Positions 20,743-42,865 of a stretch of 64,000 nucleotides of DNA are shown here, in pieces; within the stretch, counting starts at the first letter, position 1, and every line of letters begins with the position of its first letter. The stretch covers positions 1,364,001-1,428,000 of the forward strand of contig NZ_CP043488.1 in the NCBI RefSeq assembly GCF_008330945.1. The letters run 5' to 3'. The translations under genes and the position numbers were made by a program. The notes under the pieces are model-generated. The model was not told where the DNA came from. It saw only the letters and a list, made by a program, of their open reading frames with translations, and searched no databases. Source of the DNA: Labrys sp. KNU-23 (GTDB lineage Bacteria > Pseudomonadota > Alphaproteobacteria > Rhizobiales > Labraceae).

Positions 20743-22242
20743 TCACGCGGCGGGCCGAGCGGCCAGCCATTTGGGAAGATAGCTCCTCCCGATCAGCGTC
20801 ATGTCACTGGCAGGCGCAAACCCGGCCTTGCCGAGAAGCGGAACGAGCCCGCCACGATCGTGCAGGTCCAGGACGTCGACCGCGCCACCTGCATGTACTC
20901 CGCCGATGAATATCTGCGGTATCGTGGCCTTGCCGGTCAGGGCGTGCAGCGCCCTGCGGATTTCGCCGCCGAGACCACCAGACTGCATCGCCACGGAATC
21001 GAGATCGACCGAACGGAACGGCACGCCCATATCCCCGAGGAAGCGGCGCACCGCCCAGCAGAACTCGCACCATTCCAACGCGAACATCACCACGGGCAGA
21101 TCGGGATTCCCGATTGCCTCGCCGAGGAAGTCGCGCGCTCGATCCGGTGCCGGTTCAGCCACCGCAGCCATGGCTGCCACTGGTTGCGGCGCAGGAACGC
21201 CAAAGCGGCACAATGGGGTCGAATTCGAGATTTCCCTCTCGGCGCTGTCCATCTCCTGCCCGATCGAATCGAACAGGGGAGTCGACAGATAACGCTCGCC
21301 CGTATCGGGAACCATGAACAAGATCCGGCTACCCTTCTGCGCCGTTTTCGCCGCTTCGAGCGCGGCCGCCAGCGTCGCACCGCCGGTGATGCCACAGAAG
21401 ATGCCCTCCTGCCGCGCAAGCTCGCGAGCCAAGCGAAGAGCCTGCGCACCACCAACGGGCTGGATGGCATCGATCAGGCCAGCACCGATGGCATCCTGGG
21501 TCAGCTGCGGGATGAAGTCTGGAGCCCATCCCTGCATCGGATGCGGCCGGAATAACGAATGGCTTTCGGCCGGGGTGCCGTCCGTCTTGTAGCGCTGCGG
21601 GAGGCCGCTCGCCAGCATCGGCGCATTTTCGGGTTCAGCCACGATGATCCGAGTTGCCGGGCTTTCGGCGCGCAGAACCCGCGCGATCCCCTTGAGGGTA
21701 CCGCCGGTGCCCGCACCCGTGACAAAGCAGTCAGGGCCGGCCCTGCCAAAGGTCAGCAGGATTTCGCGTGCCGTCGTCTGGCTGTGGATATCGGCGTTGG
21801 CCTCGTTCTCGAACTGGCGGGTCCAGAACCACCCGTGCGCCGCCGCAAGTTCACGTGCCTTCTCGACCATGCCGGTGCCCTTCTCGGAGGCGGGCGTCAA
21901 CACCACCTGTGCGCCAAGGAATCGCATGAGCTTCCGGCGCTCGACCGAGAAGCTTTCCGCCATCACGATGACCAGCGGATACCCCTTGCGCGCGCAGACC
22001 ATCGCGAGCCCAATCCCGGTATTGCCGCTCGTCGCCTCGATGACCGTCTGGCCGGGCTTCAATCTGCCATCGCGTTCGGCGGCTTCAATGACACCCAGGG
22101 CCAGCCGATCCTTGACCGAACCCAAAGGGTTGAACGCCTCCAGCTTGGCGTAAAGCTCAATCCCATCAGGCGCGAGGCGCGACAGGCGCACCACAGGGGT
22201 ATTGCCGATGGTATCGAGAATGGAATTGTACAATTTGGACAT
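20743..22242 (-). CDS. cysK: Cysteine synthase A fused to a C-terminal glutaredoxin
   Basis: 499 residues. Residues 1 to about 320 are a complete O-acetylserine sulfhydrylase: PLP lysine K44 in NPLGSVKDR, substrate loop TSGNTGIG (71-78), phosphate-binding GAGTGGTLKG (177-186) and TGERYLSTPLF at the end. A linker of about 60 residues leads to a glutaredoxin domain (about 380-490) with the dithiol motif C392-E-F-C395 and the cis-proline segment ATIPQIFIGG. The first part makes cysteine from O-acetylserine and sulfide; the second may reduce disulfides or supply reduced sulfur to it. The ATG at 22242 has GAGGAT 8 nt upstream; 26 extra in-frame codons upstream were not accepted. Last gene of an operon with EamA and DUF1127. 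Confidence 0.93.
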   Translation of the reverse strand: MSKLYNSILDTIGNTPVVRLSRLAPDGIELYAKLEAFNPLGSVKDRLALGVIEAAERDGRLKPGQTVIEATSGNTGIGLAMVCARKGYPLVIVMAESFSVERRKLMRFLGAQVVLTPASEKGTGMVEKARELAAAHGWFWTRQFENEANADIHSQTTAREILLTFGRAGPDCFVTGAGTGGTLKGIARVLRAESPATRIIVAEPENAPMLASGLPQRYKTDGTPAESHSLFRPHPMQGWAPDFIPQLTQDAIGAGLIDAIQPVGGAQALRLARELARQEGIFCGITGGATLAAALEAAKTAQKGSRILFMVPDTGERYLSTPLFDSIGQEMDSAEREISNSTPLCRFGVPAPQPVAAMAAVAEPAPDRARDFLGEAIGNPDLPVVMFALEWCEFCWAVRRFLGDMGVPFRSVDLDSVAMQSGGLGGEIRRALHALTGKATIPQIFIGGVHAGGAVDVLDLHDRGGLVPLLGKAGFAPASDMTLIGRSYLPKWLAARPAA

Positions 22243-27495: not shown

Positions 27496-28602
27496 CTATC
27501 CATGACTGGTGATTGGCGGGCCAAACATGCCCGGTTCGGGCCGGACACCAAGACCAGGACGCTGCGGAACGGCGATGTGTCCCTCGACGATCCTTATCGG
27601 GTTCGTGCTGTCGTAATGGCCATCAATATATTCCTGGGCTATCCAAGCCCCTTCGCAACGGCGTGGTTCGACCGTCGATGCCAGATGAGTGCAAGCGGCC
27701 GCAATGATGTCGCCGCCCCAGGCATCGTCGCAGCTGTGCGGAAGGGAACGGATTGCGCACATGTCGCGCACGGTGGTCATCTTGGAAAGACCACCCAGGC
27801 GGGTCACCTTGAAGCCGAATCCATCGGCTATGCCGGAAGAAATGGCCCGCAGCACCGCGTTCTGGTCTTCCGTGCTTTCATCGAGATAGACCGGATGGCT
27901 GATCCGGCCCTTCAGGGTGGCGACCTCTTCCATGGTATTGCATGGCTGTTCGAGCACGAAGGGGACGGACTGGCACAGATGGCTGAGCTGCATGGCGGCA
28001 GCCACGGTCATGCCGCGATTACCGTCGACGGCGATGCGCGCCTTGAAGCCGACCGCCTCCCAGACCTTGCGGACTGTCGCGACGTCCTGCTCGAGGCTGC
28101 GACCGCCGATCTTGACCTGAAGGCGGGGATAGCCTGACCTGACCTTGTCGGCGGCAATCCGCGCCGTTTCGTCCGGCTCGCCGACGATCAGGGAATAGTA
28201 GCTCTCGACGCGGTCCGTCAGCGCGCCGCCGAGCAGCGTCGAAACCGGAACGCCGAGCTGCTGGCCGAGGAGATCGAGGAAAGCGATATCGAGCGCGGCC
28301 TTGGCATAGCCGTGACCGTTCAAACGCTCATCCATGCGCTTGGCGAGCAGCCGAATGGACTGCACCTGCTGACCGATCAGGCCCGGAGCGATCTCGGCGA
28401 TCGCTGCACGAGCACCGAGGGCATGCTGGGGCTGATAGACCGGGCCGATGGGACAAGTCTCGCCCCAGCCCGCCAGCCCCTCCTCCGTCACCACTTCCAC
28501 CAGAGTACTATCGAGCGATTGAACGTCATCGCTTGCCATCCGGTAGATACCGCCCTTCACGGGCAGAAGAACTTTATGAACATTGATGGTCTTGATGCGC
28601 AT
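27496..28602 (-). CDS. hpbD: 4-hydroxyproline betaine 2-epimerase (enolase superfamily)
   Basis: 368 residues, the length of characterised HpbD. Enolase-superfamily acid/base lysines K164 (in RLQVKIGG) and K265 (in FKVTRLGG); metal ligands D193 (AVDGNRG), E218 (VLEQPC) and D241 (YLDES). The segments GWGETCPIGP, GHGYAKAALDIA, PFVLEQPCNT and LPHSCDDAWGGDIIAAACTH are those of HpbD from marine and soil alphaproteobacteria. It inverts C2 of trans-4-hydroxy-L-proline betaine to the cis-4-hydroxy-D form, and also acts on proline betaine. Start at ATG 28602; a TTG at 28614 overlaps the methyltransferase stop. Cotranscribed behind the MttB-like gene and closed by the terminator at 27347-27379. Confidence 0.92.
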   Translation of the reverse strand: MRIKTINVHKVLLPVKGGIYRMASDDVQSLDSTLVEVVTEEGLAGWGETCPIGPVYQPQHALGARAAIAEIAPGLIGQQVQSIRLLAKRMDERLNGHGYAKAALDIAFLDLLGQQLGVPVSTLLGGALTDRVESYYSLIVGEPDETARIAADKVRSGYPRLQVKIGGRSLEQDVATVRKVWEAVGFKARIAVDGNRGMTVAAAMQLSHLCQSVPFVLEQPCNTMEEVATLKGRISHPVYLDESTEDQNAVLRAISSGIADGFGFKVTRLGGLSKMTTVRDMCAIRSLPHSCDDAWGGDIIAAACTHLASTVEPRRCEGAWIAQEYIDGHYDSTNPIRIVEGHIAVPQRPGLGVRPEPGMFGPPITSHG

Positions 28603-28610
28603 TGTCGGGC

Positions 28611-30161
28611 TCAATATTCGTCGTTCAGGGCGTCAACAGCCGGAATTTCGCGGGAGCGCCGCGCGATATAATCACGCAGTTCCTCGTCTTTAGCCTGGTC
28701 CAACACCGGCTCCTGATAGTCGGCCAACAAATGCCTGGCGTGTTCGAGCGCCCGGCGGTTGATGTCCTTCTCGCCCTCGGCCTTCCACTGCTCGATCGAA
28801 TTGTTGTCGAAGAGCTTGGGGATGAAGAACGCCGTCTGGAAATTGGCCTGCGTGTGCGGATGGCCAAGATAGTGTCCGCCAGGACCGACATCGCGCACGG
28901 CCTGCAGGGCTTCCTCGAAATCGTCCCACTGGATGCCCTGGGTCATGCGATATCCCATCGCACAGACCTCGGCGTCGACCACGAACTTGGCGATCGAGCA
29001 ATGCATGCCAGCCTCGTTCCAGCCGGCCGAGTGCCAGATATAGTTGGCGCCCGACATGAGGACCGCCATCATGGTCATGGCGCTTTCATAGCCGGCCTGG
29101 GCATCGAAGACCTTGGCACCGCCAAGCAGGTTGGACGTGCGCCATGGGACATTGTAGCGCCGTGCCATCTGCCCGATCATGAAGTTCATCAGGGAGATCT
29201 CGGGTGTGCCGGCCATCGGCGCCCCCGATTGCATCGAAACCGTCGACAGATAATGCCCGTAGATCGCCGGGCATCCCTTGCGGATGACCTGGGTATAGGC
29301 CAGCGCCGAGAGCGCTTCGGCATTGAGCTGGGCGACCGCGGCAGCCGTCGACGCCGGCGTGTTCGCACCTCCCAGCACGAAGGGAGAGCACAGTACGGGC
29401 TGGTTTCGCCGGCAGAATGCCCGCATCGCGCCCAACATGACCTGGTCCCATACCAGCGGCGAGTTGCCGTTGCAGTTGCCGGTCGTCACCGCATGATTGT
29501 CCAGGAAACCAGGCCCGAACAGGATATCGCACATGTCGAGCACATCCTCGGCATTCCTGGCCGAGGTGGTCATGCCCATGAAAATCTTGTCGGAGTGCTT
29601 CATCGACGAATAGGTAATGTGGAGATGGCGGTGCGCGACCACGATGTCCATCGGCTCGACGATGTGATGCGCCGACGAATGCAGCGCCGGCATCATATGA
29701 GCCAGCTTGTGAAAGGTGCCGAGATCCCCGATCGTCGGCAGCCGCCTGACATCGTCGAGATCGCGCAGATAGGGCGCGCCGGTCATCGGCACGAAGATGG
29801 AATTGGGGCCGCCGAGTTCTACATTCTTGGCCGGATTGCGCGCATGATAGGTGATATCGGGCGGGATGGTGCCGATCAGATCCATCACCAGGCCGCGGTC
29901 GAGATGAACGCGCTCGCCTCGTACATCCGCGCCCGCCCTTTTCCAATCTTCGAGGGCGATGGGATCGCGAAACACCACCCCGATATCTTCGAGAATGGCC
30001 AGGGATGCCTGGTGGATGCGCTCGACCTGATCGGCATCCATCGGCTCGACCACGGGCAAGGCACGCTTGAGCGTGGGGAGCATGTCGACCTTGGGGGCCA
30101 TTCGGATGGCGCGGCGGGCATCACGCCCGCTCCTTCGAGTTGTGCTCTCCTGAATGGTCAC
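28611..30161 (-). CDS. MttB-superfamily (non-pyrrolysine) quaternary-amine methyltransferase
   Basis: 516 residues from the GTG at 30161, which has GGAGGCGAGC in front (an ATG eight codons upstream lacks this). The N-terminus TRRSGRDARRAIRM and the body (VHLDRGLVMDLIGTIPPDITYHARNP, GNCNGNSPLVWDQVMLGAMRAFCRRNQP, GTPEISLMNFMIGQMARRYNVPWRTS) are those of the trimethylamine methyltransferase family. There is no in-frame UAG, so this is a non-pyrrolysine member like MtgB (glycine betaine) or MtpB (proline betaine), which pass a methyl group to a corrinoid protein. No corrinoid protein gene is in the window. Upstream partner of hpbD; probable substrate is (hydroxy)proline betaine. Confidence 0.9.
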   Translation of the reverse strand: MTIQESTTRRSGRDARRAIRMAPKVDMLPTLKRALPVVEPMDADQVERIHQASLAILEDIGVVFRDPIALEDWKRAGADVRGERVHLDRGLVMDLIGTIPPDITYHARNPAKNVELGGPNSIFVPMTGAPYLRDLDDVRRLPTIGDLGTFHKLAHMMPALHSSAHHIVEPMDIVVAHRHLHITYSSMKHSDKIFMGMTTSARNAEDVLDMCDILFGPGFLDNHAVTTGNCNGNSPLVWDQVMLGAMRAFCRRNQPVLCSPFVLGGANTPASTAAAVAQLNAEALSALAYTQVIRKGCPAIYGHYLSTVSMQSGAPMAGTPEISLMNFMIGQMARRYNVPWRTSNLLGGAKVFDAQAGYESAMTMMAVLMSGANYIWHSAGWNEAGMHCSIAKFVVDAEVCAMGYRMTQGIQWDDFEEALQAVRDVGPGGHYLGHPHTQANFQTAFFIPKLFDNNSIEQWKAEGEKDINRRALEHARHLLADYQEPVLDQAKDEELRDYIARRSREIPAVDALNDEY

Positions 30162-30200
30162 GCTCGCCTCCGCTTGTCTTAACATTACTGCGGCTAAGGC

Positions 30201-30316: not shown

Positions 30317-31234
30317 ATGGTCCGCCGCTATTACGATCTGCCCTCGCTCACCACCCTGGCGGTTTTCGAGGCCTCCGCACGGCATCTCTCGTTCAAGCTT
30401 GCCGCCCGCGAGCTCAATGTCACACCCGGTGCGGTGAGCCGGCAGATCAAGGCGATCGAGGACGAATTGGGTGTGCCGCTCTTTGCGCGCCTCGGCACCG
30501 GCGTGGCGCTGACGAGCGCGGGCGAGGATCTCTACGGGGTGCTCTCCAACAGCTTTTCGCGAGCCGCCGAGGTCGTGCGGACGATCAAGCGGGGAGATCG
30601 ATCGAGGAACGTCACCATTGCCTGCACCGACGCCTTCGCCACGATGTGGCTGGTGCCTCGCATGCGCGGCTTCTGGCAGCGCTACCCCGAGATCACCGTC
30701 GACCACCTCATCTCCGACAATCCGCGCGATTTCCGCCGGGCCGAGGTCGAGTTGCGCGTGCGCTATGGACTTGGCTCCTGGGCGGACGAAACGGCCGAAC
30801 TTCTGTTCGACGACACCATCTATCCGGTCTGCGGCCGAGGTTTTGCTGCCGAGCATCGGGATGCAACTGCCGAAACGCTGGCCGAACTGCCACTCGTTCA
30901 CGTGGATTGGGTTGATCCGGAATGGTCGGATTGGGACGAGGTCCTGCGTCGATCCAACATTCCGCACGGTCCCTTGAGAGGCCGGCGCTACGGGAAGTTC
31001 AGTGTCGCGCTTCAGGCCACCCAGGCCGACCAGGGCGTGGCCGTCGGCTGGCACCGGCTGGTGCGGTCCCTGGTCGAGAAGGGGCGGCTCACGCGCCTGA
31101 CTGACCTCGAAATTCCGGCACCGGGCGGTTATTACCTGACCTGGAACGACAACCGGGTGTTGAGCCCGGCGGCCGAAACCCTTCGTAGCTGGCTGAGAGA
31201 GATCGCCGAGAGCGAACGGCAGGCCTTCAGTTGA
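30317..31234 (+). CDS. LysR-family transcriptional regulator (GcvA-like)
   Basis: 305 residues. N-terminal helix-turn-helix: PSLTTLAVFEASARHLSFKLAARELNVTPGAVSRQIKAIEDELG, followed by LFARLGTGVALTSAGEDLY. The periplasmic-binding-like effector domain begins near residue 95 (VTIACTDAFATMWLVPRM). The closest well-known relatives are GcvA-type regulators. It lies divergent from the mttB-like/hpbD operon and beside the oxidase-dehydrogenase-lyase operon that converges on it, so it is the likely regulator of (hydroxy)proline betaine use. Confidence 0.93.
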   Translation: MVRRYYDLPSLTTLAVFEASARHLSFKLAARELNVTPGAVSRQIKAIEDELGVPLFARLGTGVALTSAGEDLYGVLSNSFSRAAEVVRTIKRGDRSRNVTIACTDAFATMWLVPRMRGFWQRYPEITVDHLISDNPRDFRRAEVELRVRYGLGSWADETAELLFDDTIYPVCGRGFAAEHRDATAETLAELPLVHVDWVDPEWSDWDEVLRRSNIPHGPLRGRRYGKFSVALQATQADQGVAVGWHRLVRSLVEKGRLTRLTDLEIPAPGGYYLTWNDNRVLSPAAETLRSWLREIAESERQAFS

Positions 31235-31281: not shown

Positions 31282-32604
31282 TCACATTTCCCGGCCCGCG
31301 CGCCTTTGCAGCCACCACAGCTTCGCCTTGGCGCCAAGGGACATGAACGGTTCGGGATAGAGCTTGCGAGGCGCGGCTTCCGACAGCGTCTCCTCGACCA
31401 TCGGCCCGCCGCTGCCGGCCGCCAGGTCGGCGATGAGCTTGCCATACAGCGTGCCCTTGACCGTTCCCAGTCCGTTGCAGCAGCAGGCCGAATAGATGCC
31501 CTGCCCGACCTCGCCGAACGCCGGCACGCTGTTGAGGGAAAGGCACAGATGCCCGGCCCAGCGGAACTCGGCCTGCACATCGGGCAGCATCGGGAACCGC
31601 TCGCGGAAGGAGCGGTCATGCGCCATGCCGAAGTTTTTGACCAAGTCTTCCGAAACCCGCATCGAGGGATTGTAGGTGCAGGAATTCCGCACCACGATCC
31701 GGTCTCCGAAGCGTCGGACGGTCGAGCCGAGCGGGTCGGCCGGGATGAGGCCCCAATAGTCCTCGCCGCCGAGCTGCGACATCTGTGACGAGCTCAGCTT
31801 TTGCGACATGCTCGCATAGAGGAAAATATGCATGAGGCGGCAGCGAAAAAAGCCAAAGCTCTCGACCTGCCCGTTCACCGTCATGATGATGCGGGGAGTC
31901 TCGACTTCGCCCTGCGGCGTCGACACCGTATGCGCCGGTCCGCTCTTGATCGAGACGACTGGCGAATTCTCGAAGATGTCGGCCTTCCCGGCGAGGCCGC
32001 GGGCGACACCGCGAATATAGGCTGCCGGCTGTATCATCACCGTGCCCGGCGTGAAGGTCCCTCCAGCATAGTAGGAGGTGCCGGTCACGCGGCGTAGATC
32101 GTCGGCGCCCAGTTTTTCGAACGGCTCGCCGAGGCTGGACAAATGCTGCTCGAACTCGGCCAGGACCCGCTGGCCTCGTTCCGTGGCAGCGCCATGATAT
32201 TTGCCGGCCCGAATGAAATGAGGTTCCAGCCCGTATTCCGCGGCAGCACTGGCCGCGAATTCGATCGCGGCCCGGTTCATCCGGATCTGCTTGATGTCGT
32301 GGTCGCGGCCGCCCGCGTAGTTGTCGCTCGCCAGTTCGTGCGGCAGGTCGATCATAAAGCCCGAATTACGGCCCGCGGCACCCCATCCGATCCGCTGCGC
32401 ATCGAGGACGACGATGCGGGCGCCGGGCTGCAGCTGGCTCAGGCGGCGTGCGGCTGCCATGCCGGCGAAGCCTCCGCCGATGACGACCCAATCGGCCCTG
32501 CGCCTGCCCTCCAGGACGCGCGGCGGTGGCGGTTTTGGCAGGAGTTCGTACCAGCCCGATCCGGCCTGGTCGGCCGGAGTCCTGATCGCAGTGTGGAGAG
32601 CCAT
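31282..32604 (-). CDS. FAD-dependent amine oxidoreductase (DAO family)
   Basis: 440 residues. ADP-binding motif VVIGGGFAGMAAARRL near residues 40-55 (G-x-G-x-x-G), then GWGAAGRNSGFM, the segment around the covalent or close FAD contact in the DadA/PuuB/OrdL group. The C-terminal FAD site contains NGLGTVKGTLYGKLIADL. Such enzymes oxidise secondary amines or D-amino acids to imines with oxygen or a respiratory acceptor. In the hydroxyproline betaine route this protein could remove the second N-methyl group (sarcosine-oxidase-like) or oxidise cis-4-hydroxy-D-proline to the pyrroline. Third gene of the minus-strand operon lyase-dehydrogenase-oxidase, 12 bp after the dehydrogenase stop. Confidence 0.9.
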   Translation of the reverse strand: MALHTAIRTPADQAGSGWYELLPKPPPPRVLEGRRRADWVVIGGGFAGMAAARRLSQLQPGARIVVLDAQRIGWGAAGRNSGFMIDLPHELASDNYAGGRDHDIKQIRMNRAAIEFAASAAAEYGLEPHFIRAGKYHGAATERGQRVLAEFEQHLSSLGEPFEKLGADDLRRVTGTSYYAGGTFTPGTVMIQPAAYIRGVARGLAGKADIFENSPVVSIKSGPAHTVSTPQGEVETPRIIMTVNGQVESFGFFRCRLMHIFLYASMSQKLSSSQMSQLGGEDYWGLIPADPLGSTVRRFGDRIVVRNSCTYNPSMRVSEDLVKNFGMAHDRSFRERFPMLPDVQAEFRWAGHLCLSLNSVPAFGEVGQGIYSACCCNGLGTVKGTLYGKLIADLAAGSGGPMVEETLSEAAPRKLYPEPFMSLGAKAKLWWLQRRAGREM

Positions 32605-32616
32605 GGCGAAGCCGGT

Positions 32617-34143
32617 TCAGTCGAGCGTCTTGGTCGCGCGGGGGTCGGAGATATCGGCCCAGACCGTCTTCAGCTCCGTGTACTGGTCATGGGCATGCAG
32701 GGACTTGTCGCGGCCGCCGAAGCCAGACTGCTTGAAGCCGCCGAACGGCGTGGTGATGTCACCCTCGCCATAGCAGTTGATGGTCACGGTGCCGGCACGG
32801 ATATCGCGCGCCATGCGATGCGCCTGGCCGAGATTGGCCGAGAAGACCGAGGCGGCAAGGCCATACTGGCTGTCGTTTGCGACACGTACCGCCTCATCCG
32901 CGCTCGCCACCGTGATGATCGACAGGACGGGGCCGAAGATCTCCTCCCTGGCGATCGTCATGCCCGGCTTGACGTCGTCGAAGATGGTCGGCTCGATGAA
33001 ATAGCCCTTGCCGATCTTGCAGGCCTCGCCGCCGGCGATGATTTTCGCGCCCTCGGCCTTGCCCTTCTTGATGTAGTCCATGATCGTCTGGAACTGTTCC
33101 TTCGAGACGATAGCGCCGAGCCGGTTGGCCGGATCGAGCGGATCGCCGAGCGGCCAGTCCCTCAGCTTGGCGATGATCTGCTCGACGAGCGCCTCCTTGA
33201 CCTTTTCATGCACGATGAGCCGGGAGTTGGACGAGCAGTTCTCGCCCATGTTCCAGAACACGGCCTGGGTGGCGTGCTGCGCCACGACATCGAGGCACTC
33301 GGCATCGTCCATGACGATGCAGGGGTTCTTGCCGCCGCATTCGAGCACGACGCGCTTCAGATTGCTCCTGGCCGAATATTCGAGGAATTTGCGGCCGATA
33401 TCGGTGGAGCCCGTGAACGCGACCATGTCGATATCGGGATGCAGGCCAAGCGCCTGGCCCGTCACCTCGCCGGGGCCGGGCAGGATCTGCAGGACGCCGC
33501 TCGGCAGGCCGGCCTGGTGGGCGAGCTCGGCCATGCGCAGCGCCGACATGTTGGTCTGCTCGGCCGGCTTGACGATGACGGAATTGCCGGTGGCGAGCGC
33601 CGGCCCGATCTTCCAGGCCAGCATCAGGATCGGGAAATTCCAGGGCAGCACGCAGGCGACCACGCCGAGCGGCTGGCGCACGATCATCGAGACCACGTTG
33701 TCGCCCGAAGGCGAGGTCTGGCCGTAGACCTTGTCTGCGGCCTCGGCATGCCATTCCAGGCAATGCAGGGCCTCGGGGATGTCGATCGTCTCGACGTCGA
33801 AGATCGGCTTGCCGCTCTCCAGCGTCTCGATGACGGCCAATTCGTGGGCGTTGTCGCGCAGCAGCTTGACGAAGCGCTTGAGCACGCCCTTGCGCTCGCT
33901 GGGATGGGCCCGCGACCAGGTGCCGGCCTCGAAGACTTTGCGAGCCTTCTCGACGGCCAGGTCCACGTCAGCCCTGCCGCAGCTGGCGATCCTTGCGAGG
34001 CGCTCGCCCGTGGCTGGATTGATGGAATCGAAGGTGTCCGCGGACAGGGCGGGCCGCGCCTTGCCGTCGATCACAGCATTGGTCGGCAGCGGCAGGCTCT
34101 GGGCCAGGGCCGCGTACTCATCACGCGTTAAGAGCAACGACAT
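32617..34143 (-). CDS. NAD(P)-dependent aldehyde dehydrogenase (2-oxoglutarate semialdehyde dehydrogenase candidate)
   Basis: 508 residues from ATG 34143 (a GTG lies three codons upstream). Catalytic Glu268 in VVLECGGKNP and nucleophile Cys303 in NMGENCSSNSR; cofactor loop VLPWNFPILMLAWKIGPALATGN and FTGSTDIGRK. The overall sequence resembles PuuC-type gamma-glutamyl-gamma-aminobutyraldehyde dehydrogenase. Here it overlaps the end of a DapA-family lyase gene by 23 nt and is followed by an amine oxidase, so oxidation of 2-oxoglutarate semialdehyde to 2-oxoglutarate, the last step of hydroxyproline breakdown, is the favoured role. Confidence 0.93.
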   Translation of the reverse strand: MSLLLTRDEYAALAQSLPLPTNAVIDGKARPALSADTFDSINPATGERLARIASCGRADVDLAVEKARKVFEAGTWSRAHPSERKGVLKRFVKLLRDNAHELAVIETLESGKPIFDVETIDIPEALHCLEWHAEAADKVYGQTSPSGDNVVSMIVRQPLGVVACVLPWNFPILMLAWKIGPALATGNSVIVKPAEQTNMSALRMAELAHQAGLPSGVLQILPGPGEVTGQALGLHPDIDMVAFTGSTDIGRKFLEYSARSNLKRVVLECGGKNPCIVMDDAECLDVVAQHATQAVFWNMGENCSSNSRLIVHEKVKEALVEQIIAKLRDWPLGDPLDPANRLGAIVSKEQFQTIMDYIKKGKAEGAKIIAGGEACKIGKGYFIEPTIFDDVKPGMTIAREEIFGPVLSIITVASADEAVRVANDSQYGLAASVFSANLGQAHRMARDIRAGTVTINCYGEGDITTPFGGFKQSGFGGRDKSLHAHDQYTELKTVWADISDPRATKTLD

Positions 34144-35065
34144 TCTGGGCACCCTTCTTGATGGACTTGTTGTCGATGGAAGCGATCACTGCCTTGAGGG
34201 TGCGGATAGTATTCTCAAGTTCCCGCCGCTCTTCCTCGTCCAGCCCGCGCATCGGCTTGCGCACGGGCCCCGCCGGCAAGCCCGCCAGTTCGCAGCCATA
34301 TTTGATGGCCTGGACGAATTTGCCGCCTTGCTCGAGCACACGCATCAGCGGCAGCAGGGCGGACATGATCAGCCGACCCTTGGCGAAGTCCTTTTCGACC
34401 GCGCAGGCATTGTAGAGGGCGAGATGCTCCTCGGGCAGGCAGTTGCCCGCCCCGCACACCCAGCCCGCGGCACCCCAGACGAAGAACTCCAACGCCTGGT
34501 CGTCCATGCCGCAGAACAGATCGATATGCGGATAGTCGCGCGCCAGGATGTGCAGCTGGTTCACGCTGCCGCTGGACTCCTTGATCGCGCGAAAGTTGGT
34601 GTTGCGGCCTACGCGGTCGAGGAATTCGGTGTCCATCATCGTGCCGGTGCGGCCGGGGTAGTTGTAGAGCATGATCGGCATGTCGGCAGCCCGGTCGATC
34701 GCCAATGCATGGTTGGCGAGTTCCTGCTGGGTGGGCACCGCATAATAGGGCGAGCCGACCAGGATGCCGTCATATTTCAGATCGCGGGCGATGAGCGCAT
34801 ATTCGATGCAATCCTCGGTCCGGATGGCGCCGACGCCGGCAATCAACGGCACGCGGCCATGGGCGATCTTCGCGGCGAGCTTGAGCAGACCCACCCTCTC
34901 GTCCCGTGACTGGGCATAGTACTCGCCCGTGGTTCCGCCGATGACGACGCCATGGACCCCGGCCGCGATAAGATGTTCCAGGACGGTTTCGAAGCCGGCT
35001 CGATCGATCGACCCGTCCTCTTGGAATGGCGTGACGATCGGCGGGATGACGCCTTTGAAGGACAT
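34121..35065 (-). CDS. DapA/NanA-family lyase, candidate pyrroline-4-hydroxy-2-carboxylate deaminase
   Basis: 314 residues, (beta/alpha)8 barrel of the dihydrodipicolinate synthase family. Schiff-base lysine K162 in FRAIKESSG, tyrosine Y134 in MLYNYPGR, and the GGTTGEYY loop at 43-50. The family also holds N-acetylneuraminate lyase, KDG aldolase and HypD/LhpC, which deaminates 1-pyrroline-4-hydroxy-2-carboxylate to 2-oxoglutarate semialdehyde. HypD/LhpC is preferred because hpbD, an amine oxidase and a semialdehyde-type dehydrogenase lie alongside. First gene of its operon; the divergent betaine importer starts 224 bp away. Sequence alone does not separate these activities. Confidence 0.88.
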   Translation of the reverse strand: MSFKGVIPPIVTPFQEDGSIDRAGFETVLEHLIAAGVHGVVIGGTTGEYYAQSRDERVGLLKLAAKIAHGRVPLIAGVGAIRTEDCIEYALIARDLKYDGILVGSPYYAVPTQQELANHALAIDRAADMPIMLYNYPGRTGTMMDTEFLDRVGRNTNFRAIKESSGSVNQLHILARDYPHIDLFCGMDDQALEFFVWGAAGWVCGAGNCLPEEHLALYNACAVEKDFAKGRLIMSALLPLMRVLEQGGKFVQAIKYGCELAGLPAGPVRKPMRGLDEEERRELENTIRTLKAVIASIDNKSIKKGAQNVVALNA

Positions 35066-35289: not shown

Positions 35290-36207
35290 ATGTCGAAGAT
35301 GCCGAGCTTCGAGGCTTCGCGGCGGCAATTTCTGCAGTTGGGTGGTAGTGCAGCCTTGGTGGCAGCTGGGTTTTCAACAACAGCTCTTGCGGATGCTGCA
35401 CGCCCTCTAGTCTATGCTTATGCAAATTGGTCCGATGCGCTCGCAATCACCTTCATCGGAAAGAAGCTGATCGAGGACAATTTCGGTTACAAGGTCCAGC
35501 CGCTGCAGGCCGATCCGGGTGTCATCTACGCCTCGCTCCAGTCCGGCAAGGTGGATGCCTTCTCGAATTCCTACATGCAGGGCACGGGCCCGCTGAAGGG
35601 CGACTACAAGGGCGGCCAGGCGGACTATGTGAAGAAAGTCGCCAGCGCGATCGAAATCCTCGGAGTCTCCGAAGGGCCGATGACGCAGGGCCTGGCGGTG
35701 CCCGACTATGTCGAGATCAACTCGATCGAGGAACTGAACGCGCACGCCGAAAAATTCGGCGGCAGCATCGTCGGCATCGATGCGGGCTCGGGTCTGATGC
35801 AATCGGCGGACAAGACCGTGAAGGCCTATGACCTCAAGCTCAAGCTCGTGGCGGGCAGCGAAGCGGCCATGGAAGCCGCCTTCGGCCGGGCCGTCGGCCG
35901 CAAGGACTGGATCGTCGTCACCACATGGGAGCCGCTGCCGATGTGGACCCAGTACAAGATGCGCTACCTCAAAGATCCCAAGGCGACGATGATGGAAGAG
36001 CCGTTCTACTGCTTCCATGCCGTGCGCAAGGACTTCAAGGACAACTTCCCGAAGGCGCATGCATTCTTCCAGAAGTTCCACATTCCCAACGATCAGGAAG
36101 CGCTCGTCATGAGCTGGATCGACAAGGGAATGAAGCCCGAGGAAGCCGCTGCCAAGTGGATCGACGACAACAAGGGTAAGGGCCTCATCGAGCAGTGGAT
36201 CGCCTGA
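35290..36207 (+). CDS. Betaine-type ABC transporter substrate-binding protein (OpuAC/ProX family)
   Basis: 305 residues. The N-terminus SRRQFLQLGGSAALVAAG has the twin arginine of a Tat signal, cleaved near ALADAA. The mature part has the family-typical YANWSDALAITFIGKKLIEDNFGYKV, VDAFSNSYMQ and WIVVTTWEPLPMW. OpuAC-like proteins hold quaternary amines in an aromatic cage; several Trp and Tyr residues at family positions are present. Preceded by GGAGAGGACACG. First gene of an importer operon divergent from the lyase-dehydrogenase-oxidase operon, so the probable ligand is (hydroxy)proline betaine. Confidence 0.93.
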   Translation: MSKMPSFEASRRQFLQLGGSAALVAAGFSTTALADAARPLVYAYANWSDALAITFIGKKLIEDNFGYKVQPLQADPGVIYASLQSGKVDAFSNSYMQGTGPLKGDYKGGQADYVKKVASAIEILGVSEGPMTQGLAVPDYVEINSIEELNAHAEKFGGSIVGIDAGSGLMQSADKTVKAYDLKLKLVAGSEAAMEAAFGRAVGRKDWIVVTTWEPLPMWTQYKMRYLKDPKATMMEEPFYCFHAVRKDFKDNFPKAHAFFQKFHIPNDQEALVMSWIDKGMKPEEAAAKWIDDNKGKGLIEQWIA

Positions 36208-36291: not shown

Positions 36292-37416
36292 ATGGACGCC
36301 AGCAAACCGGCCATTGAAATCAAGGGACTGTACAAGCTCTACGGCCATAGCCCGCAGACAGCGTTGGACGCGCTGAGGGACGATCCGAGTGCCGCCAGCG
36401 TGCCAGGGCACTTCGTGGCTCTCCGGAACATCAATCTCTCGATCGAGCCGGGCAAGATCTGCGTGATCATGGGGCTTTCCGGCAGCGGCAAGTCCACGCT
36501 GCTGCGGTGTATCAACCGGCTCATCGATCCAACCGGCGGCCAGATCCTCATCGGCGGGCGCGAGATCACCGCCGCCGGCAAGAAGGATCTCAGGCAGATC
36601 CGTTCGAGCACGATAGGCATGGTGTTCCAGCATTTCGCGCTGCTCCCGCATATGTCCGTCGTCGACAACGTGGCTTTCGGGCTGCGCATTGCGGGCATGC
36701 CACGCAAGGAGCGGCGGGCCAAGGCGTCCAAGGCGCTGGAACTGGTCGGCCTCAAGGATCTCGACAACCGCAAGCCCTCGAGTTTGAGCGGCGGCATGCG
36801 CCAGCGTGTCGGCCTCGCCCGTGCGCTGGTGATGGACACGCCCATCCTGCTCATGGACGAACCCTTCAGCGCCCTCGATCCGCTCATCCGCGAGGAGATG
36901 CAGCAAGAACTGCTCCGCCTCCAGGCCACGCTCAACAAGACGATCGTCTTCGTCACGCATGATCCCAACGAGGCCGCGACGCTGGGCGACCGCATCGCCA
37001 TCCTCCTGAAGGGCGAAGTCGTGCAGGAGGGATCGCCGATGGACATCGTGCTGTCGCCCGCCAACGACTATGTGCGCAACTTCGTCAAGGGCATCGACGT
37101 CTTCAAGGTGCTCACCGCCGGCCAGGTCATGGAGGCGGGCACAGGCTTCCAGGCCGCCGAATGGAAGAAGCAGGATGTCGTCAATGTCGGAGCGGATGAT
37201 CTCATCGCGCCCTACCTCGATCGGCTCTCGTCGAATTCGGGGCCCCTCGCTGTTGTGCGGAACGATGGCAGCTTTGCCGGCCTGGTGACCGGCGCTTCCC
37301 TGCTCAAGGCGCTGGCGGCCAATATCTCGCTTCCAAACAGGAAGCCTCAGCCCACTGCCGTCGCCGGCACGTCGAGCGGGAAAGGCATGGCAGAGGCCAT
37401 GCAGCGAGCCGTCTGA
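36292..37416 (+). CDS. Betaine-type ABC transporter ATP-binding protein (ProV/OpuAA family)
   Basis: 374 residues. Walker A GLSGSGKST (about 62-70), Q-loop MVFQHFALLPHMS, signature LSGGMRQRVGLARAL (about 164-178), Walker B ILLMDEPFSALDP, H-loop FVTHDPNEA. Residues beyond about 290 contain a short regulatory extension in the position of the CBS domains of OpuAA/ProV (IAPYLDRLSSNSGPLAVVRNDGSFAGLV). GGAGGGGTTGG precedes the ATG. It energises the permease encoded next. Confidence 0.95.
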   Translation: MDASKPAIEIKGLYKLYGHSPQTALDALRDDPSAASVPGHFVALRNINLSIEPGKICVIMGLSGSGKSTLLRCINRLIDPTGGQILIGGREITAAGKKDLRQIRSSTIGMVFQHFALLPHMSVVDNVAFGLRIAGMPRKERRAKASKALELVGLKDLDNRKPSSLSGGMRQRVGLARALVMDTPILLMDEPFSALDPLIREEMQQELLRLQATLNKTIVFVTHDPNEAATLGDRIAILLKGEVVQEGSPMDIVLSPANDYVRNFVKGIDVFKVLTAGQVMEAGTGFQAAEWKKQDVVNVGADDLIAPYLDRLSSNSGPLAVVRNDGSFAGLVTGASLLKALAANISLPNRKPQPTAVAGTSSGKGMAEAMQRAV

Positions 37417-37452
37417 CCATCGCGCCCGGGCGCATGAACAAGGAGACGCGTG

Positions 37453-38298
37453 ATGGATTTCTCGGAATTCGCCGACTCGATCGCCACGTCGATCGACGAC
37501 TTCACCACCTATCTTTCGACGAATTACAGCTTCATCTTCGATTTCATCGGTTCGATCATCAACGGCATCAACGGCCCGCTGGCCACGGCGCTCACCAGCG
37601 TCCCGGCCTGGGTCATCATCGCCGTCGCCGTCGTTGGCGGCATTCTGCTCGGGCGGATCACGCTCGCCGTTCTCGGCGGGGTGGGCCTCACCTTCATCCT
37701 TGCCATGAACCTCTGGGCGGCGGCGATGCTGACCCTGTCCCTCGTGCTGACCGCCGCCTTCATCGCCCTGCTGATCGGCATTCCCCTCGGCATGCTCATC
37801 GCCGAGTCCAAGAAGGTCAATGCGGTCGTCGAGCCGGTCCTCGACTTCATGCAGACCATGCCGCCTTTCGTCTTGCTCGTCCCAGCGGTGTTTTTCTTCG
37901 GGGTCGGCACGGTTCCCGGTGTGATTGCCACGATCTTCTTCGCGATTCCGCTGCCGACGCGCCTCACGGCGCATGGCCTCAGGATGGTGGAAAGCGAAAT
38001 GGTGGAGGCAGGGGAGGCCTTCGGCGCGGGCCGCATGACGATCCTGTTCCTGATCAAGCTGCCGCAGGCCTTCCGCTCGATCATGGCCGGCGTCAATCAA
38101 TGCATCATGATGTCCCTGTCGATGGTCATCATCGCCTCGATGATCGGCGCGGGCGGACTGGGCGACGAGATCATCCGTTCCATCTCCCGGCTTCAGGTCG
38201 GCAAGGGCGTGGAGGCGGGCCTGGCCGTGGTGGTTCTGGCGATCGTCATCGACCGCTTCTCCAAGCGCATCAGCCAGAAGGTCGATCCGACCGCCTGA
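37453..38298 (+). CDS. Betaine-type ABC transporter permease (ProW/OpuAB family)
   Basis: 281 residues. Membrane segments flank the conserved core ALLIGIPLGMLIAESKKVNAVVEPVLDFMQTMPPFVLLVPAVFFFGVG, and the EAA-like loop is EMVEAGEAFGAGRMTILFLIKLPQA. The LDFMQTMPPFVYL-type motif is diagnostic of ProW/OpuAB. AAGGAGACGCG lies before the ATG (an in-frame GTG directly precedes it). Completes the importer with the two preceding genes. A strong hairpin follows at 38333-38370. Confidence 0.94.
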   Translation: MDFSEFADSIATSIDDFTTYLSTNYSFIFDFIGSIINGINGPLATALTSVPAWVIIAVAVVGGILLGRITLAVLGGVGLTFILAMNLWAAAMLTLSLVLTAAFIALLIGIPLGMLIAESKKVNAVVEPVLDFMQTMPPFVLLVPAVFFFGVGTVPGVIATIFFAIPLPTRLTAHGLRMVESEMVEAGEAFGAGRMTILFLIKLPQAFRSIMAGVNQCIMMSLSMVIIASMIGAGGLGDEIIRSISRLQVGKGVEAGLAVVVLAIVIDRFSKRISQKVDPTA

Positions 38299-38497: not shown

Positions 38498-39271
38498 ATG
38501 GGAATGACTGACGGGACCATCAAGACTGCAGTGATAACCGGCGCGGCCGGCGGCATCGGACGCACGATTGCCCGCAAATTCATCGGGAACGGCTTTCGCG
38601 TGGTTCTCGGCGATGCCGACGCCGACCAGCTCGCTTCGCTCTGTACGGAACTCAACGCTGGCGGCGAGGTGGCCTGGGCGGTGCCCGGGGATCTTCGAAC
38701 CAAGGCCTATTGCGAAAGCCTTGTCGACGCGGCACTCGACAAGACCGGGCGGATCGATGTCCTGGTGAACAATGCCGGCATCATCACGCGCGGCAACATC
38801 CTCGAGACCTCGGACGACGACTGGATCAGGACCTTCGACGTCAATCTCACGGCGGTCTTCTATACCTGCCGCAGGGCGATTGGGCACATGAAGGCGGCAG
38901 GCGGTGGCGCCATCGTCAACATCGCGTCCTGCTGGGGGCTCTATCCGGGTCCCGGCCATCCCGCCTATTGCACCAGCAAGGGCGCAGTCGCCACGTTGAC
39001 GAAGTGCCTGGGGCGCGACCATGCCCCCGACGGCATTCGGATCAACGCGGTATGTCCCAACGAGGTGAACACCCCGATGCTACGCACCGGCTTCATCAAG
39101 CGCGGCTTCGATCCCGACACGGCCATCGACGAGCTCAATCGCAGCGTCCCCCTCGGCCGGATCGCCGAGCCGGAGGACATCGCCGACGTGGTCTGTTTCC
39201 TGTCGTCGGATGCGGCCCGCTACATCGCGGGCACGGCCGTCGAGGTCAATGGCGCCAAGCCGGTATATTGA
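38498..39271 (+). CDS. SDR-family NAD(P)-dependent oxidoreductase 1
   Basis: 257 residues, classical short-chain dehydrogenase. Cofactor motif VITGAAGGIGRTIA near the N-terminus, DADAD after strand 2 (favouring NAD), NNAGI near 93, catalytic Ser in NIASCWG and Tyr-x-x-x-Lys in AYCTSKGA. ATG 38504 is an alternative start. It follows the betaine importer after about 200 bp and is followed 10 bp later by a second SDR. Substrate unknown; it could oxidise a hydroxylated product of the neighbouring pathway, but no sequence feature shows this. Confidence 0.9.
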   Translation: MGMTDGTIKTAVITGAAGGIGRTIARKFIGNGFRVVLGDADADQLASLCTELNAGGEVAWAVPGDLRTKAYCESLVDAALDKTGRIDVLVNNAGIITRGNILETSDDDWIRTFDVNLTAVFYTCRRAIGHMKAAGGGAIVNIASCWGLYPGPGHPAYCTSKGAVATLTKCLGRDHAPDGIRINAVCPNEVNTPMLRTGFIKRGFDPDTAIDELNRSVPLGRIAEPEDIADVVCFLSSDAARYIAGTAVEVNGAKPVY

Positions 39272-39281
39272 GAGAAGTTCC

Positions 39282-40046
39282 ATGTCGAAGAGACTTGAAG
39301 GCAAGGTTGCGATCATCACCGGCGGCGGGCGGGGCATCGGGCTGGGCATCACGCAGCGCTTTGCCGAGGAAGGTGCGCGCATCGCGATCGTGCAGCGAAA
39401 CGCGCCCCCGCCCTCGATCCTGAACGAGCGGACGGTCTTCATCCAGGCCGATCTCACCCTCCCAGACGAGATCGCCCGTGCCGTGGACCGAACCGTCGAG
39501 CGCTTCGGCGGCCTCGACATCCTGGTGAACAATGCCGGCATCATGTTCGAGAAGACCGTCGAGGAGATGTCCGAGGCAGATTGGGACCAGATGATGACGG
39601 TCAACCTCAAGGCGCCCTTCCTGCTCACCAAGAGGGCCGTGCCGCTGATGCGGTCTCGCGGCGGCGGGAGCCTGATCAATATCGGTTCGATCGAGGGGAT
39701 CGGCTCCAATCCCGGCCATCCGGCCTATTCAGCCTCGAAGGCCGGCATTCATGGCTTTACCGCTGCAGTCGCCGTGGATCACGGGCGGGACGGTATCCGC
39801 TGCAACGCGATCGCACCGGGCTGGATCAATTCGGACCTCAGCGAGATCTACCTGGAAAGCATGCCCGACAGTGCGCGGATCCGACGCGAACTCCTGGCCA
39901 TGCATCCGGCAGGCCGCCTGGGAGAGCCGCGCGACATCGGCAATCTCGCAGTATGGCTTGCCTCCGATGAGAGCACGTTTGCGACCGGACAGGTCTTTGT
40001 CATGGACGGAGGCCGCACCAAAAAGCTTCCTTTGCCGATAGGCTGA
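39282..40046 (+). CDS. SDR-family NAD(P)-dependent oxidoreductase 2
   Basis: 254 residues. Cofactor motif IITGGGRGIGLGIT, NNAGIMFEKTVEEMSEADW, catalytic Ser in NIGSIEG and Tyr-Lys in AYSASKAGIHGF. Strand 2 ends IVQRN, without the acidic residue found in the first SDR, so the cofactor preference may be NADP. GAGAGAAG precedes the ATG. Likely cotranscribed with SDR 1. The pair could catalyse linked or alternative steps; substrates are not deducible. Confidence 0.9.
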   Translation: MSKRLEGKVAIITGGGRGIGLGITQRFAEEGARIAIVQRNAPPPSILNERTVFIQADLTLPDEIARAVDRTVERFGGLDILVNNAGIMFEKTVEEMSEADWDQMMTVNLKAPFLLTKRAVPLMRSRGGGSLINIGSIEGIGSNPGHPAYSASKAGIHGFTAAVAVDHGRDGIRCNAIAPGWINSDLSEIYLESMPDSARIRRELLAMHPAGRLGEPRDIGNLAVWLASDESTFATGQVFVMDGGRTKKLPLPIG

Positions 40047-40502: not shown

Positions 40503-41864
40503 GTATTTATGAGTTCCCTGCAACCAATTCCGCTGGGCATCGTGCTCTATCCCTCAGGCCACCATGTCGCAGCGTGGGCGGATCCGCGCACCCCGGCCGA
40601 TGCCGCGGTCGATCCAAGCCATTACATCCGCAGTGCGCAGCAGGCGGAAGCTGCCAAGCTCGACTTTGTCTTCGTCTCCGATCGCCTCGGCATTCCCGAT
40701 GCCGCACCGGAAGCCCTCGCCCGGGTCGATGAATGGTCTCACGGCTTCGAAGCGCTGACGCTCACTGCCGCGCTTGCGGCCGCGACGAGCCGGATCGGCC
40801 TGGTCGCAACGGCTTCCACCACCTTCACCGAGCCCTATTTCCTCGCCCGCCAGATTGCCTCGCTGGACTTGATCTCCAGGGGACGCGCCGGCTGGAACCT
40901 CGTCACCTCGTCCCTGCCGGCCGAGGCTCGCAACTTCTCATCGAGCCTGTCGTTCGATCATGCCGCCCGCTATGAACGTGCCGAGGAGTTCCTCGACGTC
41001 CTGCTCGGCCTGTGGGACAGCTGGGAGGAAGGTGCGTTCCTGCGCGATCGCGACAGCGGCTTGGTGTTTGATCCCGCAAGCCTCCATAGGCTCGACCATG
41101 ATGGCAAGTATTTTCGGTCCCGTGGTCCCCTCAACGTACCACCCTCCCCCCAGCGGCGGCCCGTGATCGTCCAGGCCGGTTCGTCCGGTCCCGGCATTCG
41201 GCTGGCTGCACGGGCCGGCGAAATCGTCTTCACGGCCCAGCCCGACCTCACCAAGGCCAAGCTTTTTCGAGCGGAAATCAAGGCGAGGGCCCGCGCCTTC
41301 GGCCGCAGCGCCGAAGACGTCCTGGTTCTGCCGGGGATCTTCCCGGTGATCGGCAGCACCCAAGCCGAGGCCCAGGAGATCTTCGAAGAGCTCCAATCCC
41401 GCATCTCTCCCCAGGTCGGCCTGTCGCTGCTGGAAACCTATCTGGGCGACGTCGATCTTTCCGGCACCGATCTCGATGGCCCGTTGCCGCCCCTGCCCGA
41501 GTCCAATTCGATCAAGAGCCGCCAAGGCCTGCTGGTCGCGCTGGCCACCCGCGAAAACCTCACGATCCGGCAGTTGATCAAGCGTGTCGCCGGCGCCCGA
41601 GGCCATTGGCAGGTCGTGGGGACCGCCCAATCCATTGCCGACCAGATGGAAGAGTGGGTGCGCGAGGGAGCTGCAGACGGTTTTGCCGTCTTGCCGCCGA
41701 CCTTCCCGCAGGGCCTCTCGGCTTTCGTCAACGAGGTCGTGCCGGAACTGCGGCGCCGCGGACGCGTGCGTGAAGACTACGCCGGCACCACCCTGCGCGA
41801 GCATCTGGGCCTGGCACGCCCCCTCTCCCGCCATAGCCCCGAAACGCTCAGGCATTCAGCCTAG
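40497..41864 (+). CDS. LLM-class flavin-dependent monooxygenase (NtaA/SnaA/DszA family)
   Basis: 455 residues, TIM-barrel bacterial-luciferase-like. PLGIVLYPSGHHVAAWADP at the start, LDFVFVSDRLG, GLVATASTTFTEPYFLARQIASLDLISRGRAGWNLVTS and RPVIVQAGSSGPGIRLAAR are the standard blocks of the nitrilotriacetate monooxygenase A / pristinamycin synthase / DszA group. These use FMNH2 from a separate reductase to oxidise N- or S-containing compounds. No flavin reductase gene is nearby. First gene of an operon with a betaine-type ABC importer and a family-3 binding protein, so it probably oxidises the imported compound. Start ATG 40497 or 40509; neither has a good ribosome-binding site. Confidence 0.9.
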   Translation: MNVFMSSLQPIPLGIVLYPSGHHVAAWADPRTPADAAVDPSHYIRSAQQAEAAKLDFVFVSDRLGIPDAAPEALARVDEWSHGFEALTLTAALAAATSRIGLVATASTTFTEPYFLARQIASLDLISRGRAGWNLVTSSLPAEARNFSSSLSFDHAARYERAEEFLDVLLGLWDSWEEGAFLRDRDSGLVFDPASLHRLDHDGKYFRSRGPLNVPPSPQRRPVIVQAGSSGPGIRLAARAGEIVFTAQPDLTKAKLFRAEIKARARAFGRSAEDVLVLPGIFPVIGSTQAEAQEIFEELQSRISPQVGLSLLETYLGDVDLSGTDLDGPLPPLPESNSIKSRQGLLVALATRENLTIRQLIKRVAGARGHWQVVGTAQSIADQMEEWVREGAADGFAVLPPTFPQGLSAFVNEVVPELRRRGRVREDYAGTTLREHLGLARPLSRHSPETLRHSA

Positions 41865-41895
41865 GCAATCCCACTCTACCAACGGAAGATCGACC

Positions 41896-42858
41896 ATGCG
41901 TAATTTCAACGTTGCCGGTTTGGCGCTATCGGCAATTCTTGTCACCGGAGCCGGGGCGCAGGCCGCCACCATCACCATCGCCGATCCTGGCTATGCGACC
42001 GCACAGGCAACGGCCTTTGTCGTGAAGGCCGTGCTGGAAGACAGGCTGGGCACGGACGTCAAGATCGTCAACGCCGCCTCCGTTCCCGTGATCTGGGAGG
42101 CCCTCGCCCGCGACACCGGCGACATCGACGTCTGGACGGATGTATGGCTGCCGAACCAGGCCGCCGCCGTCGAGCAATATGTCACCAAGGCCGGCGCGGC
42201 CAAGCTATCGCCTCTCTTCTATGCCGGCACGCAAGGCTATTGCGTGACCAAGAGCGCTGCCGAGCAGGGTGTCAAATCGGTCTATGATCTTGCCGATCCG
42301 GACAAGGCCAAGCTCTTCGATGCCAAGGGCGATGGCAAGGGCCAGATCTGGCTTGGGGCCTCCGGCTGGCTGTCGACCCAGATAGAAAAGGTTCGGGCTC
42401 GGGACTACGGCTTTGCCGACTTCTTCGACCTGGAGACGACCGACGAAGCCATAGCGACCGCTTCCCTCGACAAGGCCTCCAAGGATGGCAAGGGCTGGAT
42501 CGGTTATTGCTACGGCCCGCATCAGAATTTTGCGCGCTACGAGCTGGTCCATCTGCAGGAGCCTGCCCATGACGACAAGACCTTCACCTTTGTGAACCCG
42601 AAGGACGATCCCGCCTGGTTCGAGAAGTCCGCGGTCAAGTCGGCTTATAAGGATGCCGAGATCCATATTGCCTACAGCAAATCGGTCGCCGACCGCGCCC
42701 CGGAGGTCGCCAGGCTGCTCGAACGCGTTCAATTCGACACCCAGACGGTGAGCCAGCTCGCCTTCGAGATCGCCGTCAACAAGAAGACGCCTGACGAGGC
42801 CGCCCGCGCATGGGTGAAGGCCCATCCCGATCTCGTGGCCAAGTGGCAGGCGCCTTGA
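41896..42858 (+). CDS. Second betaine-type ABC substrate-binding protein (OpuAC family)
   Basis: 320 residues with signal peptide FNVAGLALSAILVTGAGAQAA. The mature part ITIADPGYATAQATAFVVKAVLEDRLG, VIWEALARDTGDIDVWTDVWLPNQ and KGWIGYCYGPHQ are OpuAC/ProX-type and carry several aromatic residues. It differs clearly from the binding protein at 35290 (Sec-type rather than Tat-type signal), so it is not a recent duplicate and probably binds a different quaternary amine or sulfonium compound. 31 bp after the monooxygenase; 7 bp before the ATPase gene. Confidence 0.92.
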   Translation: MRNFNVAGLALSAILVTGAGAQAATITIADPGYATAQATAFVVKAVLEDRLGTDVKIVNAASVPVIWEALARDTGDIDVWTDVWLPNQAAAVEQYVTKAGAAKLSPLFYAGTQGYCVTKSAAEQGVKSVYDLADPDKAKLFDAKGDGKGQIWLGASGWLSTQIEKVRARDYGFADFFDLETTDEAIATASLDKASKDGKGWIGYCYGPHQNFARYELVHLQEPAHDDKTFTFVNPKDDPAWFEKSAVKSAYKDAEIHIAYSKSVADRAPEVARLLERVQFDTQTVSQLAFEIAVNKKTPDEAARAWVKAHPDLVAKWQAP

Positions 42859-42865
42859 AGCGCAG

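Follow-up and report, generated by a model that had tools for sequence, protein, structure and literature searches.

An MttB-family gene of Labrys without neighbouring B12 partners: a predicted hydroxyproline-betaine demethylase probably served by remotely encoded partner proteins

Labrys sp. KNU-23 carries an MttB-like gene with no corrinoid protein or methyl acceptor encoded near it, which raises the questions of where its methyl group goes and which substrate provides it. A preliminary description of the locus had left three destinations for the methyl group: a remotely encoded corrinoid protein, a different acceptor reached directly, or a one-carbon route not yet described for the family. 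We analyzed the 64,000-nucleotide stretch of DNA that contains the gene (hereafter the window; C2:1364001-1428000), the 7.5 Mb genome, which consists of two contigs (C1 and C2), and related genomes. We consider it likely that the window MttB is the substrate arm of a three-component, B12-dependent demethylase acting on hydroxyproline betaine, with its MtgC, MtgD-like and RamA partners encoded remotely. The genes of the locus on which the argument draws are as follows.

27496..28602, minus strand: HpbD-type epimerase of the enolase superfamily (hydroxyproline/proline betaine 2-epimerase), assigned by phmmer and structure comparison
28611..30185, minus strand: mttB-like gene, predicted hydroxyproline-betaine methyltransferase, non-pyrrolysine (PF06253, 718 bits)
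30317..31234, plus strand: putative regulator of the pathway, LysR family, divergent from mttB (PF00126/PF03466)
31282..32604, minus strand: FAD-dependent oxidoreductase of the DAO family, predicted D-hydroxyproline or N-methyl-hydroxyproline oxidase (PF01266, 146 bits)
32617..34152, minus strand: aldehyde dehydrogenase, predicted 2-oxoglutarate semialdehyde dehydrogenase (PF00171, 566 bits)
34121..35065, minus strand: DHDPS-family lyase, predicted deaminase (PF00701, 217 bits)
35290..36207, plus strand: OpuAC/ChoX-like quaternary-amine binding protein of an ABC importer (PF04069, 198 bits)
36292..37416, plus strand: ABC importer ATPase of the ProV/ChoV type (TIGR01186, 343.6 bits, above the cut-off of 326.6)
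37450..38298, plus strand: ABC importer permease of the ChoW/ProW type (TIGR03416, 273.8 bits, below the cut-off of 363; PF00528)
38498..39271, plus strand: short-chain dehydrogenase, first of a conserved pair (PF13561/PF00106)
39282..40046, plus strand: short-chain dehydrogenase, second of the pair (PF13561, 209 bits)

The mttB open reading frame encodes 524 amino acids on the minus strand, from an ATG at 30185 to a stop at 28611. The extent first given for it, 28611-30161, had the correct stop, and 30161 proved to be an internal alternative start. The protein matches the Pfam MTTB profile (PF06253) with 717.7 bits (cut-off 25) over profile positions 1-500 of 500, and the solved non-pyrrolysine MttB-family structures with about 341-504 bits in a sequence search. 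An AlphaFold2 model (pLDDT 88.1, pTM 0.87) was superposed using VIA-align and has the MttB-type TIM-barrel fold, with Z scores of 49-59 to all solved members (59.3 to Sinorhizobium meliloti 4YYC, 55 to Desulfitobacterium hafniense MtgB 9YCE/2QNE, 49 to the pyrrolysine MttB of Methanosarcina) and 27 to the next family, MtmB. The window MttB is thus an ordinary, intact family member, and its closest named relative is that of Labrys sp. WJW, with 98% identity for this protein. It was also correctly described from the outset as lacking a UAG codon: the whole frame was read and holds no in-frame stop, and a leucine, within the stretch TSNLLGGAKV encoded entirely by sense codons, takes the place of the pyrrolysine of Methanosarcina MttB (residue X in the 7XCL alignment). 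Together with a TIGR02369 score of 273.8 bits, below the cut-off of 525, this led us to reject the protein as a pyrrolysine trimethylamine methyltransferase. A 526-amino-acid frame at window 28602-30182 on the plus strand lies antisense over the entire gene; it is probably not a gene, since shadow frames are common in a GC-rich genome.

Domain searches of the whole genome placed all B12-binding, pterin-binding and RACo domain matches outside of the window, and the motif DxHxxG...SxL...GG was absent from all six frames of the window. The reported lack of a nearby corrinoid protein or methyl acceptor therefore holds within the window and fails for the genome as a whole. A search for the missing pair, as the preliminary description had advised, recovered both members on C1. 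The sole MtgC-type corrinoid protein (C1:1782564-1783253) has B12-binding_2 and B12-binding domains with a DIHDIGKN motif, and its gene adjoins a DUF1638 gene. The single MtgA/MtgD-type pterin-binding methyltransferase (about 300 amino acids; C1:2004381-2005049) lies beside the single RamA-type activase (C1:2002090-2002893), which has 2Fe-2S, linker, middle and ASKHA domains. All three, with MtgC at 1.78 Mb and the MtgD-like gene at 2.00 Mb, are on the other replicon from the window mttB. The cognate corrinoid protein, tetrahydrofolate methyltransferase and RamA activase, i.e. the standard parts, are all encoded in this genome, and no undescribed one-carbon route needs to be invoked. A standard pair elsewhere, coregulated with mttB, had been named as the finding that would count against such a route; its genomic part is in place with the MtgC and MtgD-like genes on C1. 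As the genome has six MttB paralogues and a single gene each for MtgC, RamA and the MtgD-like protein, this B12 hub is probably common to all six enzymes.

Two other cobalamin proteins were considered as partners and set aside. One is MetH, present as a full-length frame of 1,259 amino acids; against it stands the dedicated MtgC, which tracks MttB. A B12-binding match at C2:228096 (a frame of 155-194 amino acids beside a 563-amino-acid frame) is without the B12-binding_2 cap and is not close to MtgC; it looks like a small mutase subunit.

The tracking was assessed in 199 Hyphomicrobiales genomes, 69 with and 130 without MttB. RamA was found in 68/69 and a close MtgC orthologue in 68/69 of the MttB genomes (both in 68), as against 9/130 and 5/130, respectively, of those without MttB (Fisher p about 6e-42 for RamA and 5e-46 for MtgC, not corrected for shared ancestry). 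The MtgC cut is clear, given that orthologues scored 344-495 bits and no member of the next class exceeded 174 bits. The sole MttB genome without the hub genes, G087, is in 1,250 contigs with a best MttB match of only 6.6e-86, which we judged to be fragmentary or a contaminant. Among genomes chosen for carrying the MttB clade of the window, MtgC (73-99% identity) and RamA were present in 30/30. The option of a remotely encoded corrinoid protein is accordingly the one that the data support. In the flanks of 80 loci from this clade (10 kb, several loci cut by contig ends), MtgC, MtgD, RamA and DUF1638 were found in 0/80; remote partners are therefore the normal state of the clade rather than an oddity of a single genome.

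Similar arrangements have been described. In Eubacterium limosum, the non-pyrrolysine MttB homologues MtpB (proline betaine), MtcB (carnitine) and MtyB (gamma-butyrobetaine) methylate one MtqC, and MtqC and MtqA/RamQ are encoded in separate clusters, remote from the three methyltransferases (PMC8604678). The likeness to our genome lies in several MttBs sharing one corrinoid protein, tetrahydrofolate methyltransferase and activase encoded apart, and the MtpB substrate is the nearest chemical relative of the predicted one. E. limosum is an anaerobic acetogen in which the pathway feeds acetogenesis, whereas the gene described here is tied to a betaine epimerase and hydroxyproline degradation. In the aerobic alphaproteobacterium Ruegeria pomeroyi, the demethylation of glycine betaine relies on MtgB, MtgC and MtgD together with RamA and DUF1638, the locus tags of the parts are widely spaced, and genomes carry up to seven PF06253 genes, for which the authors suggested more methylated substrates (PMC12478193). 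The single MtgC, pterin-binding MtgD, RamA and DUF1638 are shared with Labrys; the substrate, glycine betaine, differs from the one predicted here. For want of MetH, R. pomeroyi also uses its MtgC and MtgD to make methionine; our genome, in contrast, has a full-length MetH. That partners are usually encoded alongside, as initially supposed, is thus not the rule (PMC8604678, PMC12478193), and hub-sharing in these two organisms means that the puzzle of the orphan MttB was already answered in general terms. The B12 machinery is known, and it is the link to hydroxyproline betaine that constitutes a good testable prediction.

The genes near mttB point to the substrate by way of a betaine epimerase and hydroxyproline-degradation genes. 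The hpbD-type gene begins 8 bp past the mttB stop. By phmmer its product scores 487 bits against 4E8G/4IZG and 429 against 4H2H/2PMQ, and the next family reaches 230 bits; by structure it reaches Z 54.8, rmsd 1.6 and 56-57% identity to the HpbD structures, as against Z 49.9 and 34% identity to 4MGG, which we take to be a cis-3-hydroxyproline dehydratase. We take the Paracoccus/Pelagibaca proteins 4E8G/4IZG and 4H2H/2PMQ to be hydroxyproline-betaine 2-epimerases / proline-betaine racemases, as Zhao 2013 and Kumar 2014, both cited in PMC5144071, are said to have described them. Residues K168, K269, D197, E222 and D245 are invariant across 21 relatives; by position in the muconate-lactonising subgroup, K168/K269 are presumably the paired catalytic lysines and D197/E222/D245 the metal ligands. 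Judged by these comparisons, the gene is an HpbD orthologue, closer to HpbD than to other enolase families.

Upstream lies a second group of genes. A DAO oxidase, a DHDPS-family lyase and an aldehyde dehydrogenase are the three enzyme classes that take cis-4-hydroxy-D-proline to 2-oxoglutarate. The DAO protein, deaminase and aldehyde dehydrogenase that, with the betaine ABC transporter, flank mttB-hpbD form a predicted hydroxyproline-degradation set; all three belong to broad families whose exact activities in this locus rest on context, and a sequence search of the PDB gave no relative of the DAO protein. The PDB relatives of the OpuAC/ChoX-like protein bind glycine betaine/choline. Downstream of the importer, the short-chain dehydrogenase pair (38498-40046) is probably part of the pathway, since a similar pair directly follows HpbD in many relatives (e.g. 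loci L061, L062, L100 and L104). The LysR regulator is 73-99% identical beside mttB in close relatives (Labrys, Mesorhizobium, Ensifer). Two further features of the window were noted: at 40509-45264, a luciferase-like monooxygenase gene precedes genes for another OpuAC binding protein, an ABC ATPase and a permease, which together form a separate uptake/oxidation cluster; and, at 20743-22242, a cysteine-synthase-like frame has an apparent C-terminal glutaredoxin-like fusion, from its translation read by eye.

Across the 80 clade loci, the aldehyde dehydrogenase was near mttB in 62/80, the DAO protein in 60/80 and the DHDPS-family lyase in 57/80. HpbD was found in 38/80 (in 2 of these at only 32% identity) and was undetected nearby in 42/80, with contig ends truncating many of these 42 loci. 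A tree of 86 MttB proteins groups the window protein in a 77-row clade supported by 100% SH-aLRT and separates it from the five paralogues of its own genome, to which it has 34-43% identity. At the five paralogous loci there is neither a DAO nor a DHDPS homologue of the window kind, nor an HpbD homologue above 24% identity. Four of them (L016, L017, L019 and L020) lie beside dimethylglycine-dehydrogenase-like (DAO-GCV_T) genes, the domain pair being recognized by HMM for L017 and by likeness of sequence and length for the other three; this suggests a pairing of MttB with a tetrahydrofolate-dependent flavoenzyme for other quaternary amines. The nearest solved structure, S. meliloti 4YYC (504 bits, Z 59), is probably not an orthologue, as its 46% identity is hardly above that of the paralogues. 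D. hafniense MtgB shares fold and class of chemistry (38% identity), but has glycine betaine as its substrate and belongs to a separate lineage.

The sequences themselves establish the family memberships, the single-copy hub and its co-occurrence with MttB, the conserved gene neighbourhood, and the HpbD orthology with its invariant residues. From these we infer the substrate, the order of steps, the pairing of proteins and the choice of enzyme for the second methyl as follows. The ABC importer would take up hydroxyproline betaine (betonicine or its 2-epimer), and HpbD would invert C2 to give the D-configured cis-4-hydroxy betaine. The MttB-family protein would then use one N-methyl to methylate the cob(I)alamin of the MtgC-type protein, from which the MtgA/MtgD-type methyltransferase would pass the methyl to tetrahydrofolate, with RamA, encoded beside the latter, re-reducing oxidised cobalamin. 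A flavoenzyme would probably take off the second N-methyl; the candidates are the DAO protein of the locus and an StcD-like old-yellow-enzyme homologue (C2:1147531-1149564) that is 85% identical to a Mesorhizobium protein encoded about 7 kb from MttB and HpbD genes. The DAO protein would then oxidise the product, the DHDPS-family lyase would deaminate it, and the aldehyde dehydrogenase would complete the route to 2-oxoglutarate by a further oxidation.

This scheme shares several elements with the HpbD pathway of Pelagibaca and Paracoccus: the epimerase (an HpbD orthologue with 52-57% identity), an ABC importer for betaines, and an oxidase, a deaminase and an aldehyde dehydrogenase, with 2-oxoglutarate as the end point. 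In that pathway the first demethylation is carried out by the Rieske oxygenase HpbB1C1, whose place the MttB protein occupies here. The best reading is that predicted MttB demethylation replaces or backs up the Rieske enzyme. A Rieske homologue at C2:1143454-1144707 (L116:7455-8707) consists of two overlapping frames of 166 and 250 amino acids, and may be broken (frameshifted or split); a second, at C1:4826473, is intact and 57% identical to the Mesorhizobium one. Beside the split gene are a 348-amino-acid frame in the position of the ferredoxin reductase of relatives, a TetR-like regulator and two old-yellow-enzyme genes, one of them StcD-like. In some relatives a Rieske oxygenase adjoins MttB and HpbD, so MttB is not always the sole candidate for the first demethylase, and the two enzymes may serve as alternatives to each other, perhaps according to how much oxygen is available.

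Proline betaine (stachydrine) might instead be the substrate, with the same mechanism and remote hub and with the hydroxyproline genes in a separate route. The E. limosum homologue MtpB uses this compound (PMC8604678), a passage of PMC5144071 cites HpbD family members under two activities, hydroxyproline betaine 2-epimerase and proline betaine racemase, and the genome has the StcD-like enzyme. The most conserved neighbours of the clade are nevertheless the DHDPS-family deaminase and semialdehyde dehydrogenase, which makes this reading unlikely. We know of no role for either enzyme in proline breakdown. That the protein is a second methyltransferase for glycine betaine (or a choline- or carnitine-derived substrate), with incidental neighbours, would fit its strong similarity to MtgB (341 bits, Z 55) and the adjoining ChoXWV-like transporter; we regard it as highly improbable, as the window clade is separate from the five paralogues and has HpbD and hydroxyproline genes, whereas four paralogues have the context expected of such an enzyme.

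Direct transfer of the methyl to another acceptor would fit the finding that 0/80 relatives have a corrinoid gene within 10 kb, yet we give it hardly any credence: MtgC and RamA accompany MttB in all 30 clade genomes and, across the order, in 68/69 of the genomes with MttB, the protein retains the standard MttB fold over its whole length, and sharing of a hub has published precedents (PMC8604678, PMC12478193). With the standard set in the genome and MtgC and RamA in every clade relative tested, a different acceptor is unnecessary.

The assignment of hydroxyproline betaine to this clade was not found stated in the open-access papers searched, and a stachydrine review makes no mention of demethylases. 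On balance, we lean towards regarding this widespread alphaproteobacterial clade as the first corrinoid methyltransferase specific for hydroxyproline betaine, one that would stand in for the Rieske enzyme without needing oxygen, act on the D-epimer from HpbD and share one hub among six methyltransferases in an aerobe. An apparent orphan MttB thereby gains a testable substrate assignment for a clade found across Alphaproteobacteria. The hydroxyproline-betaine reading suggests that soil, rhizosphere and marine bacteria could remove the first methyl of hydroxyproline betaine by an oxygen-free B12 route, which would conserve the methyl as methyl-tetrahydrofolate, and it predicts that the shared-hub model of aerobic quaternary-amine use extends to a cyclic plant osmolyte.
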